DNA of 64,000 bases, from contig NZ_LMEA01000009.1 in the NCBI RefSeq assembly GCF_001425235.1, positions 480,327 to 544,326 on the forward strand. Reading direction: 5' to 3'. Each line of letters begins with the position of its first letter. The stretch's first letter is position 1. The notes beneath the pieces are model-generated. The model saw nothing but the letters and a program-made list of their open reading frames with translations, had not been told where the DNA came from and searched no databases. The DNA is from Devosia sp. Root413D1 (lineage in GTDB: Bacteria; Pseudomonadota; Alphaproteobacteria; Rhizobiales; Devosiaceae). The translations under genes were made by a program, and so were the position numbers. Of this stretch, positions 9,379-43,536 are shown piece after piece.

Positions 9379-9833
9379 TGGCCCGCAACATCTGGCTGTT
9401 CGTCGTCTCGCTGTTTATCGGCCCCGCCATCGGCGCCCTGGTGTTCTTCGCCTTCGCCGCCATCACCGACGGCATCATCGTGCATGCCGCCGGCCAGTCG
9501 GCGTCGAACTTCCTCGGCGAGAACTGGCCGATCATCCTCATCGCGGCCTATACCCTCGGCGCCATACCCGCTGCCATTTCCTCGGTCATCATCATGCTCG
9601 TCAGCCGCTTCCTGCCGCAGCTCTGGCAGCGCCTCGTCGCCGGCCCGGTGATCGGCGCCCTGGTCAGCGCCGCCGTCATCGGCCTCTTCCTGTTTTCCGA
9701 CGACGTCAGCTCGGTCGATGATGTCATCATCATCAGCGGTGTGGCGCTCACCGGCGCCGTATCGGCGTTCTGCTGCGTCGGCCTGATCGAGCTTTGGCAC
9801 CCGCTGCCGAAGCGCTCGGCTCCGGTGACCTGA
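9378..9833 (+). CDS. small four-helix membrane protein
   Basis: 151 residues from the ATG at 9378, which shares one base with the LytTR stop (TAATG). Four hydrophobic helices fill the chain, and I recognise no family motif. It is placed between the LytTR regulator and cobN, overlapping both by one base (TGATG to cobN), so it is cotranslated with them. A role as partner of the LytTR sensor or in metal transport is only a guess. Confidence 0.75.
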   Translation: MARNIWLFVVSLFIGPAIGALVFFAFAAITDGIIVHAAGQSASNFLGENWPIILIAAYTLGAIPAAISSVIIMLVSRFLPQLWQRLVAGPVIGALVSAAVIGLFLFSDDVSSVDDVIIISGVALTGAVSAFCCVGLIELWHPLPKRSAPVT

Positions 9834-12800
9834 TGCACCTGCTCTCCGCCCAGGCCGGTGCCCTGCAACAGGAGGGCGAGGCCATCGACCTCGCCCAGTC
9901 CCCGGCGCCGATCATCTTCGCCTCCGCCGCCGACAGCGAACTGGCCATGCTCGCCGGCGCCGCCGATCGCGCCGGCATTTCCGAGCTGCGCCTCGCCAAC
10001 CTCTTGCGGTTGAGCCACAACCTCTCGGTCGACCTGTGGCTCGAGCAGACCGTGCAGCACGCCAGCCTGGTCGTCGTCCGCCTGCTCGGCGGCCCGGCTT
10101 ACTGGCAGTATGGCGTCGACGAGCTGACCGCCCTGGCGCTGAGCGGCAAGATCCAGCTCGCCCTCCTCCCCGGCGACGCCAACCCCGACCCGATCCTGCA
10201 ACAGCGCTCCACCATCCATCCTGACGACTGGGCCAGGCTCCACAGCCTGTTCACCGCCGGCGGCCCGGACAATGCCGATACGCTGCTCAAGGCCTTCGCT
10301 GAGCTCGTGCAGTCGTCCTCCTCCCTCTCGCGGGGAGGCAAGGGTGGGGGGAGCCCCGCGCTCGAGCCGAGCAGTTCGGCGCCAAAACCCTTCCACCGCT
10401 TCGGCCTCTGGCACCCCAACCACGGCATGCTCGACGCGCTGCCGGCCTCGCCCAACCCGAACGTGCCCATCCTGTTCTACCGCGCTGCCCTCGAAGGCGC
10501 CGGCACCGGAACGCTCGAAGCCCTGATCGCCGAACTCGAAACCCGATCCGTCAATCCCGTCCCCATCGTCGTCTCGACGCTGAAGGAAGGCGCCTGTATC
10601 CGTTTCGTCCAGGCGGCCTTCGCCGCGTATCCGCCGAGCGTTATCCTCAACCTCACCGGCTTTGCCCTCGGCCTCGACGGCCTCGACGCCAAGCAGAACC
10701 CCTTCGCCGGCACCGACGCCCCAGTGATCCAGCTGCTGCAGGGTGGCCGCCCCGAGGCGCAGTGGGCCGCCGATATCCAGGGCCTCACGGCGAAGGATCT
10801 CGCCATGCAGGTGGTGCTGCCCGAGCTCGACGGCCGCATCGGCATGCTGCTGGTCGGCCATAAGCACGACGCCATCTGGCACGAGCGCACCCAATGCCCG
10901 CTCTCCGCCTACGCCCCCGACGCCGATGGCATCCGCCGCGCCGTCACGCTGGCCAAGAACTGGACGACGCTGCGGGCCACGCCGCGCGCCGATCGGCGGG
11001 TTGCGGTGGTCCTCGCCAACTACCCCATCCGCGACGGCCGCCTGGCCAACGGGGTGGGCTATGACGCGCCGCAGTCGACGGTGGAGATTTTGAAGGTTCT
11101 TGAGGGAGCGGGGTATCGCTTCGGCCCCTCACCCGGCGCTGCGCGCCACCCTCTCCCTCAAGGGGAGAGGGGCGATGTGGCACGATCCAGCCCCGGCCTT
11201 CCCTCTCCCCTTGAGGGAGAGGGTGCCTCGCGTAGCGAGGCGGGTGAGGGGCAGTTTCCGCACGACGGCAACGACCTGATTGCCTTGCTCCAAGCCGGCC
11301 CCACCAACGCCCATCCGGAGCGCGGCACCGGCATCCCGTTTCCCGTGAATCGCTACCGTGAGCTGTTCGCCACGCTCCCGGCCAAGATCCAGTCGGAAGT
11401 CACCGCCCGCTGGGGCGACCCTGCTGCCGATCCGTTCGTGCGTGGCGACGGCGCTAAATGCGCCTTCCATCTCCCGGCGATCCGCCTCGGCAACGTCGCC
11501 ATCCTGGTCCAGCCGGCCCGCGGCTATCATCTCGACGAGACCGCCAGCTATCACGATCCGGACCTCGTGCCGCCACACGGCTATCTTGCTGCCTATCTCT
11601 GGCTGCGGCACGAGTTTGCGGCCCATGCCGTGATCCACAACGGCAAGCACGGCAATCTCGAGTGGCTTCCCGGCAAGGCCACCGCGCTCGACGCCGCGTC
11701 CTATCCCGCCGCGCTCTGGGCCGAGCTGCCGCAGCTCTACCCGTTCATCGTCAACGATCCGGGCGAGGGCACCCAGGCTAAGCGCCGCACCGGCGCGGTG
11801 ATCATCGATCATCTGGTGCCGCCGCTGACCCGCGCCGAAACCTACGGCCCGCTCAAGGACCTCGAAGCGCTGCTCGACGAGTATTATGCCGCCTCCGGCA
11901 TGGACCGCCGCCGCCTCGCCGGGCTCAGGAAACGCATCTTCGATTTCACCCGCGACGCGCGCCTAGACCGCGATATCGGTCTCGTCCCGGATGAGTTCGA
12001 AACGCTGAAGCGCATCGACACCTTCCTCTGCGACCTGAAGGAAGCCCAGATCCGCGATGGCCTCCACATCTTCGGCCAATCCCCCACCGGCCGCCTCGAG
12101 CGCGACCTGATCGTCGCGCTCGCCCGAGTGCCGCGTGGAGAGACGGCGGGCGAAGCATCGCTCATCCGCGCCCTCGCCGACGACCTGAAACTCGGCTTCG
12201 ACCCGCTGACCGCCGATCTAGGCGCGCCATGGACCGGGCCGGTGCCCGCTGCTCCCCCCCTCCCAACCTCCCCCGCAAGGGGGGAGGTGCTGTCCGGTGC
12301 AGTCGGCACGATCCTGCCACAAACACCGGCCGGCACCCTCCCCCTTGCGGGGAGGGTTGGGGAGGGGGGCGCCCCTCGCACCGTCGGCGATATCGTCGAG
12401 TATCTCGAAGCGTTAGCTGTCGAACTCGTCAGCGGTCGCGCTCCCGATCCAGACTGGCACGCAACTGCGGCCGTACTCGAAACGATAGAACACGTTATCC
12501 GCCCCCGCCTCGCCGCTTCCGGCCCGAACGAGATCGCTTCCCTCCTCCTCGGCCTCGACGGCCGGTTCGTCCCGCCCGGTCCCTCCGGCGCGCCGTCGCG
12601 TGGCCGCCTCGACGTGCTGCCCACCGGACGGAACTTCTACTCCGTCGATATCCGGGCGGTGCCCACCCCCACCGCCTGGGAGCTCGGCCGGAAGTCGGCG
12701 GAAAACCTGCTGGTCCGCCACTTCCAGGATCACGGCACGCCGCTACGCTCGCTCGCGCTTTCCGTCTGGGGCACCGCCAATATGCGCACCGGCGGTGACG

Positions 12801-13798
12801 ACGTCGCCCAGGCCCTCGCCTTCATCGGCGCCAAACCGGTTTGGGACCCGTCTTCGCTCCGCCTCTCCGGCTACGAGATCATGCCGCTGGCGAAGCTCGG
12901 GCGGCCGCGTGTCGACGTGACCCTCCGCATCTCGGGCTTCTTCCGCGACGCTTTCCCCGCCCAGATCGCGCTGTTCGACAAGGCCGTCCGCGCCATCGGG
13001 GCCCTCGACGAGCCCGAGGACCAGAACCCGATTGCCGCCCGCATGCGCACCGACGCGCTGGAATTGATGAGATCCGGCGCTGACGATCGCACCGCAGCCC
13101 TCAGCGCCGGCCACCGCGTCTTCGGCTCGAAACCCGGCGCCTATGGTGCGGGCCTGCAGGGCCTGATGGATTCGGGCAACTGGGAGAGCAAGGCCAACCT
13201 CGCCGAGGCCTTTCTCAACTGGGGCCAATACGCCTATGGCGCCAATGCCGATGGCACGCCCGAGCGCGATCGTTTCGCTGCACGCCTCTCCAACATCGAG
13301 GCGGTGGTCCACAACCAGGACAATCGCGAGCACGACCTGCTCGACAGCGATGATTACTACCAGTTCGAGGGTGGCCTCGCCGTCACCGCCGAGAGCCTGA
13401 CCGGCCGGGCTCCCGCCGCTTATCACAACGATCACTCGCGCCCCGAGCGGCCGATCGCCCGCACGCTGGCCGAGGAGATTTCGCGGGTCGTGCGCTCCCG
13501 CGTCGTCAATCCGAAATGGATCGATGGGGTGAAGCGCCATGGCTATAAGGGCGCCTTCGAGATCATCGCCACCGTCGACTATATGTTCGCCTTCGCTGCG
13601 ACGACCGGCGCGGTGCAGACTCACCATTTCGATCTCGCCTTCGAGGCCTTCGTCGAAGACGATGCGACGCGTGGGTTCATCGAGGCCAACAACCGCTTCG
13701 GCTATGACGAGCTGATCGAAAAGTTCAACGAAGCCCGCCGGCGCGGCTTCTGGACCCCACGTTCCAATTCCGCTTTCGCCTATCTCGAGGACACTTGA
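9833..13798 (+). CDS. cobN: CobN, cobaltochelatase large subunit, with in-frame palindromic inserts
   Basis: 1321 residues from the ATG at 9833 (TGATG overlap); a TTG 39 bases upstream is less likely. CobN is the large chelatase subunit that inserts cobalt into hydrogenobyrinic acid a,c-diamide together with CobS and CobT (not in the window). The core motif HNGKHGNLEWLPGK and NDPGEGTQAKRR are intact, and the C-terminal part keeps the FVEANNRFGYDEL-type end. The family usually has about 1250-1275 residues; the excess is explained by three low-complexity Pro/Gly/Ser/Arg stretches encoded by palindromic repeats at 10316-10351, 11125-11251 and 12254-12369, all without stop codons. Confidence 0.96.
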   Translation: MHLLSAQAGALQQEGEAIDLAQSPAPIIFASAADSELAMLAGAADRAGISELRLANLLRLSHNLSVDLWLEQTVQHASLVVVRLLGGPAYWQYGVDELTALALSGKIQLALLPGDANPDPILQQRSTIHPDDWARLHSLFTAGGPDNADTLLKAFAELVQSSSSLSRGGKGGGSPALEPSSSAPKPFHRFGLWHPNHGMLDALPASPNPNVPILFYRAALEGAGTGTLEALIAELETRSVNPVPIVVSTLKEGACIRFVQAAFAAYPPSVILNLTGFALGLDGLDAKQNPFAGTDAPVIQLLQGGRPEAQWAADIQGLTAKDLAMQVVLPELDGRIGMLLVGHKHDAIWHERTQCPLSAYAPDADGIRRAVTLAKNWTTLRATPRADRRVAVVLANYPIRDGRLANGVGYDAPQSTVEILKVLEGAGYRFGPSPGAARHPLPQGERGDVARSSPGLPSPLEGEGASRSEAGEGQFPHDGNDLIALLQAGPTNAHPERGTGIPFPVNRYRELFATLPAKIQSEVTARWGDPAADPFVRGDGAKCAFHLPAIRLGNVAILVQPARGYHLDETASYHDPDLVPPHGYLAAYLWLRHEFAAHAVIHNGKHGNLEWLPGKATALDAASYPAALWAELPQLYPFIVNDPGEGTQAKRRTGAVIIDHLVPPLTRAETYGPLKDLEALLDEYYAASGMDRRRLAGLRKRIFDFTRDARLDRDIGLVPDEFETLKRIDTFLCDLKEAQIRDGLHIFGQSPTGRLERDLIVALARVPRGETAGEASLIRALADDLKLGFDPLTADLGAPWTGPVPAAPPLPTSPARGEVLSGAVGTILPQTPAGTLPLAGRVGEGGAPRTVGDIVEYLEALAVELVSGRAPDPDWHATAAVLETIEHVIRPRLAASGPNEIASLLLGLDGRFVPPGPSGAPSRGRLDVLPTGRNFYSVDIRAVPTPTAWELGRKSAENLLVRHFQDHGTPLRSLALSVWGTANMRTGGDDVAQALAFIGAKPVWDPSSLRLSGYEIMPLAKLGRPRVDVTLRISGFFRDAFPAQIALFDKAVRAIGALDEPEDQNPIAARMRTDALELMRSGADDRTAALSAGHRVFGSKPGAYGAGLQGLMDSGNWESKANLAEAFLNWGQYAYGANADGTPERDRFAARLSNIEAVVHNQDNREHDLLDSDDYYQFEGGLAVTAESLTGRAPAAYHNDHSRPERPIARTLAEEISRVVRSRVVNPKWIDGVKRHGYKGAFEIIATVDYMFAFAATTGAVQTHHFDLAFEAFVEDDATRGFIEANNRFGYDELIEKFNEARRRGFWTPRSNSAFAYLEDT
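10316..10351. repeat. partial GC-rich palindromic element inside cobN
   Basis: CCTCCCTCTCGCGGGGAGG followed by CAAGGGTGGGGGG, the same wording as one arm of the intergenic elements in this window. Translated in frame it gives SSLSRGGKGGGS, a low-complexity patch between two conserved CobN regions. Confidence 0.6.
11125..11251. repeat. 127-base palindromic element inside cobN
   Basis: Starts CCCCTCACCCG and ends CGGGTGAGGGG, with nested arms CCCTCTCCCTCAAGGGGAG and its inverse. It is open in the cobN frame and translates to a Pro/Gly/Arg-rich stretch (from SPGAARHPLPQGE to EAGEGQ). The layout is the same as the intergenic element at 26274-26411. Confidence 0.85.
12254..12369. repeat. 116-base palindromic element inside cobN
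   Basis: Left arm CCCCCCTCCCAACCTCCCCC and right arm ending GGGGAGGGTTGGGGAGGGG are inverse copies around a short centre. Open in the cobN frame, it encodes PPLPTSPARGEV through AGRVGEGGAP between two conserved regions. Confidence 0.85.
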
Positions 13799-14459: not shown

Positions 14460-14647
14460 GCCCCATCTCCCCTCGGCGGGGGAGAAAGCGAAAACTTGGG
14501 CTTAGCGCAGCTAAGTCCTTAGTTTTCGCCAGAGAGGGGGTCGCGAGGAGGCACTGTGGCTCCGCATCCCCTCTCTTGCGATTTCTAAGGGCCTAGCGAG
14601 GGCTAAGCCCTTAGAAATCGCTTTCTCTCCCGCAAGGGGAGAGATGA
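14460..14647. repeat. composite palindromic element downstream of cobO
   Basis: The outer arms CATCTCCCCT and AGGGGAGAGATG bracket two inner hairpins. One is CGAAAACT...GCTTAGC with its complement ending AGTTTTCG, at about 14488-14528. The other is GCGATTTCTAAGGG with CCCTTAGAAATCGC, at about 14579-14623. No gene is visible in it. It lies between convergent genes and may act as a bidirectional terminator. Confidence 0.7.
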
Positions 14648-14670
14648 TTGAGAGGCCGGTGGATGCCCTC

Positions 14671-18188: not shown

Positions 18189-18280
18189 GTCATCCCCGCG
18201 AAGGCGGGGACCCGGTGGGATGTTTCACCGTCCACCGATGCGGCGAGACCGCACTAGGTTCCCGCCTGCGCGGGAATGAC
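18189..18280. repeat. inverted-repeat element (GTCATCCC family, copy 1)
   Basis: Starts GTCATCCCCGCGAAGGCGGG and ends CCCGCCTGCGCGGGAATGAC, 92 bases in all. The wording is diverged from but related to the two near-identical copies at 33131 and 43458. It fills the gap between the convergent symporter and CDF genes. Confidence 0.75.
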
Positions 18281-26273: not shown

Positions 26274-26411
26274 AAGGCCCCCTCACCCGGATCGCTTTGC
26301 GATCCGACCTCTCCCCTCAGGGAGAGTTGAGCTGGGGCGCGATCCAACGTCCTCCTCACCTCTCCCTTTGGGGGAGAGGTCGCCGCGAAGCGGCGGGTGA
26401 GGGGGCCTTCT
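26274..26411. repeat. 138-base palindromic element between cobJ and cobM
   Basis: Perfect 16-base terminal inverted repeats, AAGGCCCCCTCACCCG and CGGGTGAGGGGGCCTT, with internal arms CCTCTCCCCTCAGGGAGAG and CCTCTCCCTTTGGGGGAGAGG. It starts three bases after the cobJ stop and ends 16 bases before cobM, separating genes that elsewhere in the operon overlap. Confidence 0.85.
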
Positions 26412-29410: not shown

Positions 29411-29495
29411 CCCCCACCCCTGTCCCCTCCCCGCAAGGGGGAGGGAGACCCCAACACGGCGATCTCAGTCTGCGTCTCCCTCCCCCTTGCGGCAG

Positions 29496-29726
29496 GGCTA
29501 TCGCATATGGGGGACTGACAGTAGTTGGGTGGCCTTCTCCCCTTGTGGGAGAAGGTGGCCGAAGGCCGGATGAGGGGTCCGCGCAACGAAGTGTAGCGCG
29601 GTCGGAGCGTAAGCGACGAGCGACTGAGTGCGTGGAGAGAACCCCTCATCCGCCCTTCGGGCACCTTCTCCCACAAGGGGAGAAGGCACTCACACAACGG
29701 CCGGTGGCTTTCCATATGCGATAGCC
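29496..29726. mobile_element. MITE-like unit with 15-base terminal inverted repeats
   Basis: Bounded by exact inverted copies of GGCTATCGCATATGG. CCCCTTGCGG occurs just outside both ends (about 29483-29492 and 29729-29738), which could be a target duplication or simply the two arms of the host palindrome. There is no transposase inside, so mobility would depend on an enzyme from elsewhere. Confidence 0.45.
29534..29687. repeat. inner palindromic element with about 45-base arms
   Basis: Left arm begins CCTTCTCCCCTTGTGGGAG and continues through CCGGATGAGGGG; the right arm runs from CCCCTCATCC to CAAGGGGAGAAGG. The central part is about 65 bases with no open frame of note. Confidence 0.75.
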
Positions 29727-29790
29727 ATGCCCCTTGCGGGGAGGGATCAAGGGGGGCGGCCAACCATCGACGGCTAGACGACAGGAGGCG

Positions 29791-32158: not shown

Positions 32159-33112
32159 ATGCAAGCCCTCCTCGCTCCCCTGGCGCTGCTGCTCGAGCGC
32201 CTCGTCGGTTACCCCAACGGTCTTGTCGCCCGCATCGGCCACCCGGTGATGTGGATCGGCAGGCTGATCTCGCTGCTCGACCTGCGGCTGAACCGCGACG
32301 TCAACCGCCGCGGCAAGGGCGTGCTGGCGCTTATTATCCTGCTCGCCGTTACCGGCCTCGTCACCGTGGCTATCGCCTGGCTCTGCCGTCTCATCCCCTA
32401 TGGCTTTATCCTCGAAGCCATTCTCGCCTCCACCTTCCTGGCACAGAAGGCGCTGGGCGATGCCGTGCGCTTCGTCGCCGCCGCGCTGCGCCGTAGCCTG
32501 CCCGAGGGGCGCACCGCGGTGAGCCACATTGTCGGCCGCGATCCGCAAGCGCTCGACGAGCCCGGCGTCGCCCGCGCCGCCATCGAGTCGCTGGCCGAAT
32601 CCACCTCCGATGCGGTAGTCGCGCCGCTGTTCTGGCTTGTCCTGTTCGGCCTGCCGGGCATCGCGCTCTACAAGGCGGTGAACACCGCCGACTCGATGAT
32701 CGGCCACAAGACCGAGCGGCACCTCGAATTCGGCTGGGCCAGCGCCCGCTTCGACGACCTGCTGAACCTGATCCCCGCTCGTCTCACCGCTTTGCTGATC
32801 GCCGGTGGGGCCTTCTTCATCAAGGGCGCGCATCCGGAGCTGGCCTGGTCCACGGCGCTGCGCGATGCGAGAAAGCACGAAAGCCCCAATGCCGGCTGGC
32901 CCGAAGCCGCGATGGCCGGCGCGCTCGGCTTCCGCCTCGGCGGCCCCCGGAGCTATGACGGCGACGTGGTGGATCTGCCGAGTTTTGGCGATGGTCGGGC
33001 GGAACTCGGAGCCGACGACATCGAGCGCTCGCTCAGGCTCTACGCCATGACGCTCAACCTGACGCTGGCGGTGACGGTGCTGGTGGCGCTGGTGGTTTGG
33101 CGGCTAAGCTAG
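32159..33112 (+). CDS. cobD: CobD/CbiB, adenosylcobinamide-phosphate synthase
   Basis: 317 residues with several transmembrane helices. HPVMWIGRLISLLD, the REAL-like VGRDP block, ESLAESTSDAVVAPLFW, AVNTADSMIGH and FGWASARFDDLLNLIPARLTA are diagnostic of CbiB. It attaches aminopropanol (or its phosphate) to cobyric acid at the membrane. The gap from cobQ (32047-32158) holds a short GC-rich palindrome remnant (CCTCCCCCGCAAGCGGGAG). Confidence 0.94.
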   Translation: MQALLAPLALLLERLVGYPNGLVARIGHPVMWIGRLISLLDLRLNRDVNRRGKGVLALIILLAVTGLVTVAIAWLCRLIPYGFILEAILASTFLAQKALGDAVRFVAAALRRSLPEGRTAVSHIVGRDPQALDEPGVARAAIESLAESTSDAVVAPLFWLVLFGLPGIALYKAVNTADSMIGHKTERHLEFGWASARFDDLLNLIPARLTALLIAGGAFFIKGAHPELAWSTALRDARKHESPNAGWPEAAMAGALGFRLGGPRSYDGDVVDLPSFGDGRAELGADDIERSLRLYAMTLNLTLAVTVLVALVVWRLS

Positions 33113-33130
33113 CTCTCACCCCCACCACGG

Positions 33131-33210
33131 TGTCATCCCAGCGAAAGCTGGGACCCATTTCGCCGCCCGTGCCAGCCGATAGTTGGGTCCCAGCTTTCGC
33201 TGGGATGACA
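33131..33210. repeat. inverted-repeat element (GTCATCCC family, copy 2)
   Basis: 80 bases with perfect 27-base arms; the left arm begins TGTCATCCCAGCGAAAGCTG. It is nearly identical in its arms to the copy at 43458-43536; only the loop differs. It lies between the convergent cobD and cobP genes. Confidence 0.9.
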
Positions 33211-33253
33211 TCGAGTTTGAGGTACGATCTCAACCCAAGCACCGGCCGGCTGC

Positions 33254-39060: not shown

Positions 39061-39110
39061 TCCTCCCCCGCGTGGCGGGGGAGGGGGACCGCCGCAGGCG
39101 GTGGAGGGGG
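39061..39110. repeat. GC-rich palindromic element after edd
   Basis: CTCCCCCGC-GTG-GCGGGGGAG followed by ACCGCC-GCA-GGCGGT: two adjacent hairpins. Likely a terminator-like repeat of the same family as the others. Confidence 0.6.
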
Positions 39111-43457: not shown

Positions 43458-43536
43458 TGTCATCCCAGCGAAAGCTGGGACCCAACTCGCCGCAGCGCAG
43501 GTGGATGAATGGGTCCCAGCTTTCGCTGGGATGACA
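43458..43536. repeat. inverted-repeat element (GTCATCCC family, copy 3)
   Basis: 79 bases with perfect 27-base arms, the left arm starting TGTCATCCCAGCGAAAGCTG as in the copy at 33131. It lies in the 248-base gap between convergent genes; nothing else is visible there. Confidence 0.9.

Follow-up and report, generated by a model that had tools for sequence, protein, structure and literature searches.

In-frame REP dimers in variable linkers of CobN from Devosia sp. Root413D1 and a possible role of the predicted nuclease DUF559 in their spread

Translated palindromic repeats are known from other bacteria. Two publications describe palindromes lying in frame in Rickettsia proteins, in several families and sometimes with more than one insertion per protein (PMC3733652, PMC10969869), and REPs within ORFs, like such in-frame Rickettsia palindromic elements (RPEs), have thus already been reported (PMC3733652). 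The same work portrays CGTC REPs as common in alphaproteobacteria, mostly arranged as dimers and in some cases located within ORFs, with 8–9 bp stems that begin with AT and with a CCA tail; according to it, RAYT proteins are absent and a search for the CGTC-REP transposase failed (PMC3733652). In REP/REPIN systems with a RAYT (REPtrons), inverted dimers occur genome-wide together with a mostly resident gene that is flanked by cognate units. According to PMC8266576, TnpAREP is usually present in a single copy, and there is no evidence that it moves.

The DNA analyzed here is a 64,000-nucleotide stretch (the window) of a 5.85 Mb genome, in which a preliminary description had placed a 127-base inverted repeat of an intergenic type in frame within cobN. 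Its coordinates, 11125–11251, proved exact, and the cobN ORF runs uninterrupted across the element, henceforth S2:

9833..13798, + strand, cobN, cobaltochelatase large subunit (ATG at 9833, stop at 13796–13798; 1321 codons before the stop, all inserts included)
11125..11251, + strand, S2 element, two REP units that form an inverted dimer in frame in cobN (127 bases)
11125..11134, + strand, outer box of the first S2 unit, CCCCTCACCC, the complement of the G-box
11149..11171, + strand, hairpin of the first S2 unit (23 nt)
11201..11223, + strand, hairpin of the second S2 unit, inverted (23 nt)
11242..11251, + strand, outer G-box of the second S2 unit, GGGTGAGGGG

In a profile search, the cobN product matched the Pfam CobN-Mg_chel profile over residues 139–1312 (1138 bits). 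The arms of S2 found by repeat search measure 31 nt and are 94% complementary, and in the CobN reading frame the element is read as ...FGPSPGAARHPLPQGERG...SPLEGEGASRSEAGEGQ.... The linker that holds it has 63 residues, as opposed to 21 in 69 of the 77 named and in all nine order-rank CobN, a net gain of 42 codons, or 126 nt. Four palindromic hairpins were observed in cobN as a whole, compared to a mean of 0.17 and a maximum of one in 60 codon shuffles. Across the 126 nt from 11128 to 11253, three of the six frames are stop-free, matching a shuffled expectation of 2.88; retention in frame thus needs selection only, and no special coding design. A low-complexity linker devoid of mobile DNA was considered and rejected, as the DNA is palindromic and its families are repeated in the genome.

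As an insertion, S2 has withstood comparison with distant homologs. A hairpin at this site occurs in 0/77 named and 0/9 order-rank CobN, from which the linker residues are missing as well, so that the pattern of the same residues without a palindrome, which would speak against an inserted palindrome, is not what distant CobN present. One partial named record, from Devosia geojensis, starts inside the S2 linker and carries a REP there. The element is not an isolated insertion, but one of three such sites in cobN, which are filled by other palindrome families in relatives:

10317..10351, + strand, S1, a single REP unit in cobN, decayed but in frame (intact form in genomes G011, G014 and G017)
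12254..12369, + strand, S3, a second in-frame REP dimer in cobN, of another family (hairpins at 12266–12288 and 12335–12357)

The S3 linker spans 65 residues here versus 33 in 54 of the 77 named CobN and, as judged from the aligned proteins, S1, S2 and S3 all occupy variable linkers. No clear further in-frame copy came to light elsewhere in the same genome: in eight further regions inspected by eye, none of the REPs was clearly internal to a gene, those in frame being placed upstream of the apparent gene start.

Relatives have the same linkers filled in other ways. We aligned 118 CobN sequences (from 16 of the 19 genus genomes, 16 of family rank, nine of order rank and 77 named), leaving out G003, G008 and G013, in which cobN is in pieces, and three of 80 named loci that represent duplicate genomes. 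At least one hairpin in the S1–S3 linkers is present in 11/16 genus, 7/16 family, 1/9 order-rank and 3/77 named CobN. Within the genus, 38 hairpins lie in 7.7 kb of linker versus four in the remaining ~54 kb, and in family-rank CobN 24 lie in the linkers versus three elsewhere. One and the same linker harbors different palindrome families in different species. The named CobN contain 22 hairpins outside the three linkers, yet within the ORF; a fourth site near residue 787 holds an in-frame REP pair in seven Rhizobiales CobN (from Rhizobium, Hoeflea and relatives; L188, L194, L204, L209, L211, L222 and L239), and a fifth, near residue 540, a REP in the partial D. geojensis CobN (L186). As the linkers of relatives thus contain other palindrome families or nothing, we conclude that permissive CobN linkers are recurrently invaded and that the inserts then decay in frame. 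G006 and G016, the only genus genomes without DUF559 (PF04480), have no linker hairpin in CobN; G004, G010 and G015 do have DUF559, yet no linker hairpin that passes the filter used.

The CobN of one relative, G005, contains at the S2 site a whole DUF559 domain, in frame and between two inverted palindromes (L018; the contig measures 4,617 bp and the genome has 7% contamination). We therefore tested DUF559 genes for palindrome flanks. PF04480 gave 76 matches in 17 of the 19 genus genomes and matches in 46 of 150 genomes sampled evenly across the phylum, and we assembled a set of 135 distinct copies (70 from the genus, 38 from the family or order and 27 from the phylum sample), which comprises the copies fetched, while more exist. 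With seven copies near a contig end left out (n = 128), a polypyrimidine hairpin was found within 170 bp of DUF559 on both sides in 75 cases, on one side in 46 and on neither in seven (121/128 with any). Counted by flank, 196 of 256 DUF559 flanks carry such a hairpin, versus 9 of 988 windows at least 600 bp away at the same loci. An earlier count without controls agrees in direction (57 both, 24 one, two none; n = 83, six edge copies left out). The association extends to plasmids, as all five named plasmid copies, drawn from 44 matching records (Shinella, two Azospirillum, Sinorhizobium and Deinococcus aetherius), have a hairpin within 120 bp, on both sides of the gene in the A. lipoferum and Deinococcus cases. 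The arrangement in G005 CobN has a counterpart in the HsdM methyltransferase of G089 (L262), in which a whole palindrome-DUF559-palindrome unit is in frame (N6_Mtase at residues 193–476, DUF559 at 501–608).

The units flanking a DUF559 gene are inverted, matched copies of each other: the mean local score is 36.4 with the own partner versus 18.8 with other partners, and the own partner is the best match in 21 and among the top three in 33 of 58 flank pairs. The flanking REPs also follow the sequence of the gene. DUF559 identity correlates with flanking-REP similarity (Mantel rho 0.294, null around 0 with sd 0.03, none of 500 permutations as high; rho 0.285 for pairs below 70% identity) among 118 copies, 17 of the 135 having been left out because they lacked a usable unit or an open frame. 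Across 61 relatives, the number of DUF559 copies correlates with the number of palindromes counted by two patterns (rho 0.84, and 0.78 with genome size held; 0.71 in the genus, 0.63 in the rest of the family and 0.82 in the rest of the order), statistics that ignore shared ancestry. The median is 2.5 palindromes per genome without (n = 20) versus 103 with DUF559 (n = 41).

The exact REP types match DUF559 loci in part. The type that flanks the own-genome DUF559 gene L159 is present in 51, 49 and 27 copies in three genomes whose DUF559 bears that flank, and in 38, 24, 18 and 13 copies in G003, G004, G013 and G015, genomes in which we saw no DUF559 bearing precisely this flank. The S2 type (TTGAG) is more frequent in genomes that have the orthologous DUF559 locus of L107, L109 and L090 (Mann-Whitney p 0.01, 7 vs 12 genomes); however, G017 has 31 TTGAG copies and the locus was not found there, while in G011 the locus is present with zero TTGAG copies. 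None of the six own-genome DUF559 genes has the TTGAG type at its flanks.

REPs outside cobN in the window include the following intergenic elements:

26278..26405, no strand assigned, intergenic REP dimer of the S2 class
29425..29686, no strand assigned, intergenic REP hairpins of the S2 class, including a dimer at 29533–29686
39062..39084, no strand assigned, REP hairpin identical to the flank of the own-genome DUF559 gene L159
47819..47849, no strand assigned, REP hairpin of the 39062 type, inverted

At 26278–26405, the window and G014 carry different REP families, and G011 carries none. Around 29470–29780, the REP dimer is part of a longer element whose ends resemble GGCTATCGCATATG / CATATGCGATAGCC and which interrupts another REP that is uninterrupted in G014; a short repeat marks the junction, and the arrangement resembles the insertion of an IS-type element into a REP. 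A further REP family is represented at 14470–14660 by a hairpin with a long second stem (GCGAAAACTTGGGCTTAGC...), and the same sequence lies beside the DUF559 gene of L143. Three palindromes, at 33111–33230, 43458–43536 and 18192–18211, belong to the CGTC-1 kind, with the sequence TGTCATCCCAGCGAAAGCTGGGACCCA or a variant of it. The four own-genome GIY-YIG genes examined have neither a CGTC-like palindrome alongside nor DUF559-like palindrome flanks, and on this ground we rejected the idea that GIY-YIG nucleases drive the CGTC-like palindromes found in the window.

DUF559 genes mostly stay put: 43 of the 70 genus copies fall into 11 groups with both flanks common between genomes (88 pairs), and the gene is thus mostly resident. 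Such residence would also be seen if linkers simply tolerated the cobN palindromes as ordinary REPs and DUF559 were a passenger, either because both are intergenic or through recombination between REPs. Some genomes moreover hold palindromes with no DUF559 detected (G032, 43 + 57 by the two patterns; G029, 9 + 15; G033, 0 + 19; G040, 17 + 1). Still, we consider a passenger role rather unlikely, because other genes of the window have a hairpin in only 8 of 108 flanks and never on both sides (0/54), the four GIY-YIG genes have no such flanks, and the units beside DUF559 are matched inverted pairs that track its sequence.

An active part of DUF559 in REP spread would liken these elements to a REPtron, with which they share inverted dimers throughout the genome and a gene that mostly stays in place between cognate units, here DUF559. 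They differ in that a GTAG tag accompanies only 1 of 205 DUF559-linked hairpins and in that no Y1/RAYT protein occurs in the genus: the RAYT-type transposase profile (PF01797) matched in 0/19 genomes, while a control search matched in 5/14, and RAYT-driven spread of these REPs was consequently rejected. With CGTC REPs they have in common the alphaproteobacterial host, the predominance of dimers, the location of some copies inside ORFs and the lack of a RAYT, but CGTC is found beside 22 of the 205 hairpins and the S2 stem starts with CCCTCTCC. By sequence, then, the S2 class fits neither published superfamily, GTAG or CGTC. The likeness in principle to RPEs that the preliminary description had seen agrees with what a review says of these elements (PMC10969869), and S2 is likewise an in-frame ORF palindrome in an alphaproteobacterium, with several families and more than one insertion per protein here too. 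Going by descriptions of RPEs, it is of another, GC-rich sequence class; in addition, a single gene has its linkers refilled at the same places in different species, and this class is associated with a gene for a nuclease.

DUF559 is under purifying selection (dN/dS 0.06–0.23 in 12 of 13 pairs, the other being lost to a stop codon), and several acidic and His positions, residues of a catalytic type, are at least 99% conserved across 118 copies. When a profile built from six copies was compared with solved structures, just two chains reached E ≤ 0.01, namely 3hrl ('Endonuclease-Like Protein') and, with E 4e-6, 3r3p ('Mobile intron protein'), the latter of which we take to be I-Bth0305I; matches with E > 0.01, toxin chains among them, were discarded as chance. 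I-Bth0305I is classed as an EDxHD homing endonuclease in PMC3943268. DUF559 has conserved acidic and His residues and, going by profile and conservation only, is predicted to be a nuclease with an EDxHD/Vsr-like fold and active site. In contrast to I-Bth0305I, no intron or intein was noticed around DUF559, which instead goes with a pair of palindromes; in CobN and HsdM, the reading frame continues through the entire DUF559 unit.

A Vsr-like fold, as predicted, would suit a host-side enzyme that acts on REPs by cruciform processing or hairpin mismatch repair, and that permits their spread rather than causing it. Such a function has been proposed for a DUF559 protein of Caulobacter, VsrA: a methyltransferase mutant depends on it for its response to DNA damage, which the authors read as mismatch repair (PMC12907096). 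Pure repair would, however, leave the inverted REP pairs that flank the gene itself unexplained, and whole DUF559 units sit inside genes; we therefore find a purely host-side role doubtful and rather suggest that DUF559, as a mostly resident Vsr/EDxHD-type enzyme, mobilizes REPs and so plays a RAYT-like role with an unrelated protein.

The history of S2 bears on whether the linker inserts are kept for a function. Between G000 and G014, S2 differs at 3 of 126 sites, compared to 15.3% in the rest of cobN (33.6% at third positions), and no element-free 126-nt window of the gene is as similar. A function retained by selection, whether that of a flexible linker of use to the protein or of an RNA hairpin that regulates from within the cobN message, could account for this similarity. 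In a tree of linker-free cobN, however, G000 groups with G011 (98), whose S2 site holds a different element; G012, placed next to G002 (100), has only a remnant, with both S2 ends kept, 84 nt of the interior missing and the frame intact; and G006, G009 and G016 have no insert at S2. Because close relatives lack the element, old age of S2 under strong constraint is less likely, and a functional insert seems to us very improbable. In our reading, copies have entered this one site repeatedly, or exchange has taken place. No target-site duplication of the kind asked of a MITE was seen at S2 or at 26278–26405, where the flanks have diverged. An assembly or sequencing artefact has next to no probability: palindromes do break draft assemblies, and a very long perfect fold-back centered on a REP hairpin at the end of G004 contig 107 (L313) is probably such a case, but the same S2 element is present in G014, a one-contig genome, and other relatives carry other in-frame elements at the same sites.

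Based on these results, we propose that REP dimers invade cobN linkers and decay there, and that the predicted nuclease DUF559 spreads its cognate REPs, an explanation to which we assign a probability of roughly 65%. Each REP unit combines a hairpin of polypyrimidine type with a G-box, which is GGGTGAGGGG or a variant of it, and in most cases with a second stem that varies. The units insert into cobN at variable linkers, selection retains in-frame, stop-free insertions, and retained inserts decay in frame into plain Pro/Gly/Arg linkers. The palindromes, their return to the same linkers, their diversity and decay, and the association of the class with DUF559 genes are observed, whereas mobilization by DUF559 is deduced from them. 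DUF559 may nick or cut target DNA, that is, old REPs or linkers, and repair of the cut target by copying from a REP-bearing template would then move REPs more often than the gene. No event of REP movement was observed in the genomes compared.

We found no published report in the open-licence literature that ties this palindrome class to DUF559. The chances seem to us about even that a third REP system exists throughout the phylum with DUF559 as its enzyme, a counterpart of REPIN-RAYT that is driven by a nuclease and seen in Pseudomonadota and a Deinococcus. DUF559 would then be a mostly resident homing nuclease of the EDxHD type that spreads cognate palindromes, also into linkers of working proteins, in which REPs, and rarely the whole unit, would be translated in frame without splicing. 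How short palindromic repeats spread without a RAYT is an open question, to which the DUF559 link contributes a testable role. For DUF559 itself, which its Pfam entry lists as of unknown function, the results link a predicted nuclease of ~110 residues to a large class of palindromes. Finally, cobN amounts to a natural experiment, in which the same joints of an enzyme are refilled with translated mobile DNA that decays into ordinary linker.
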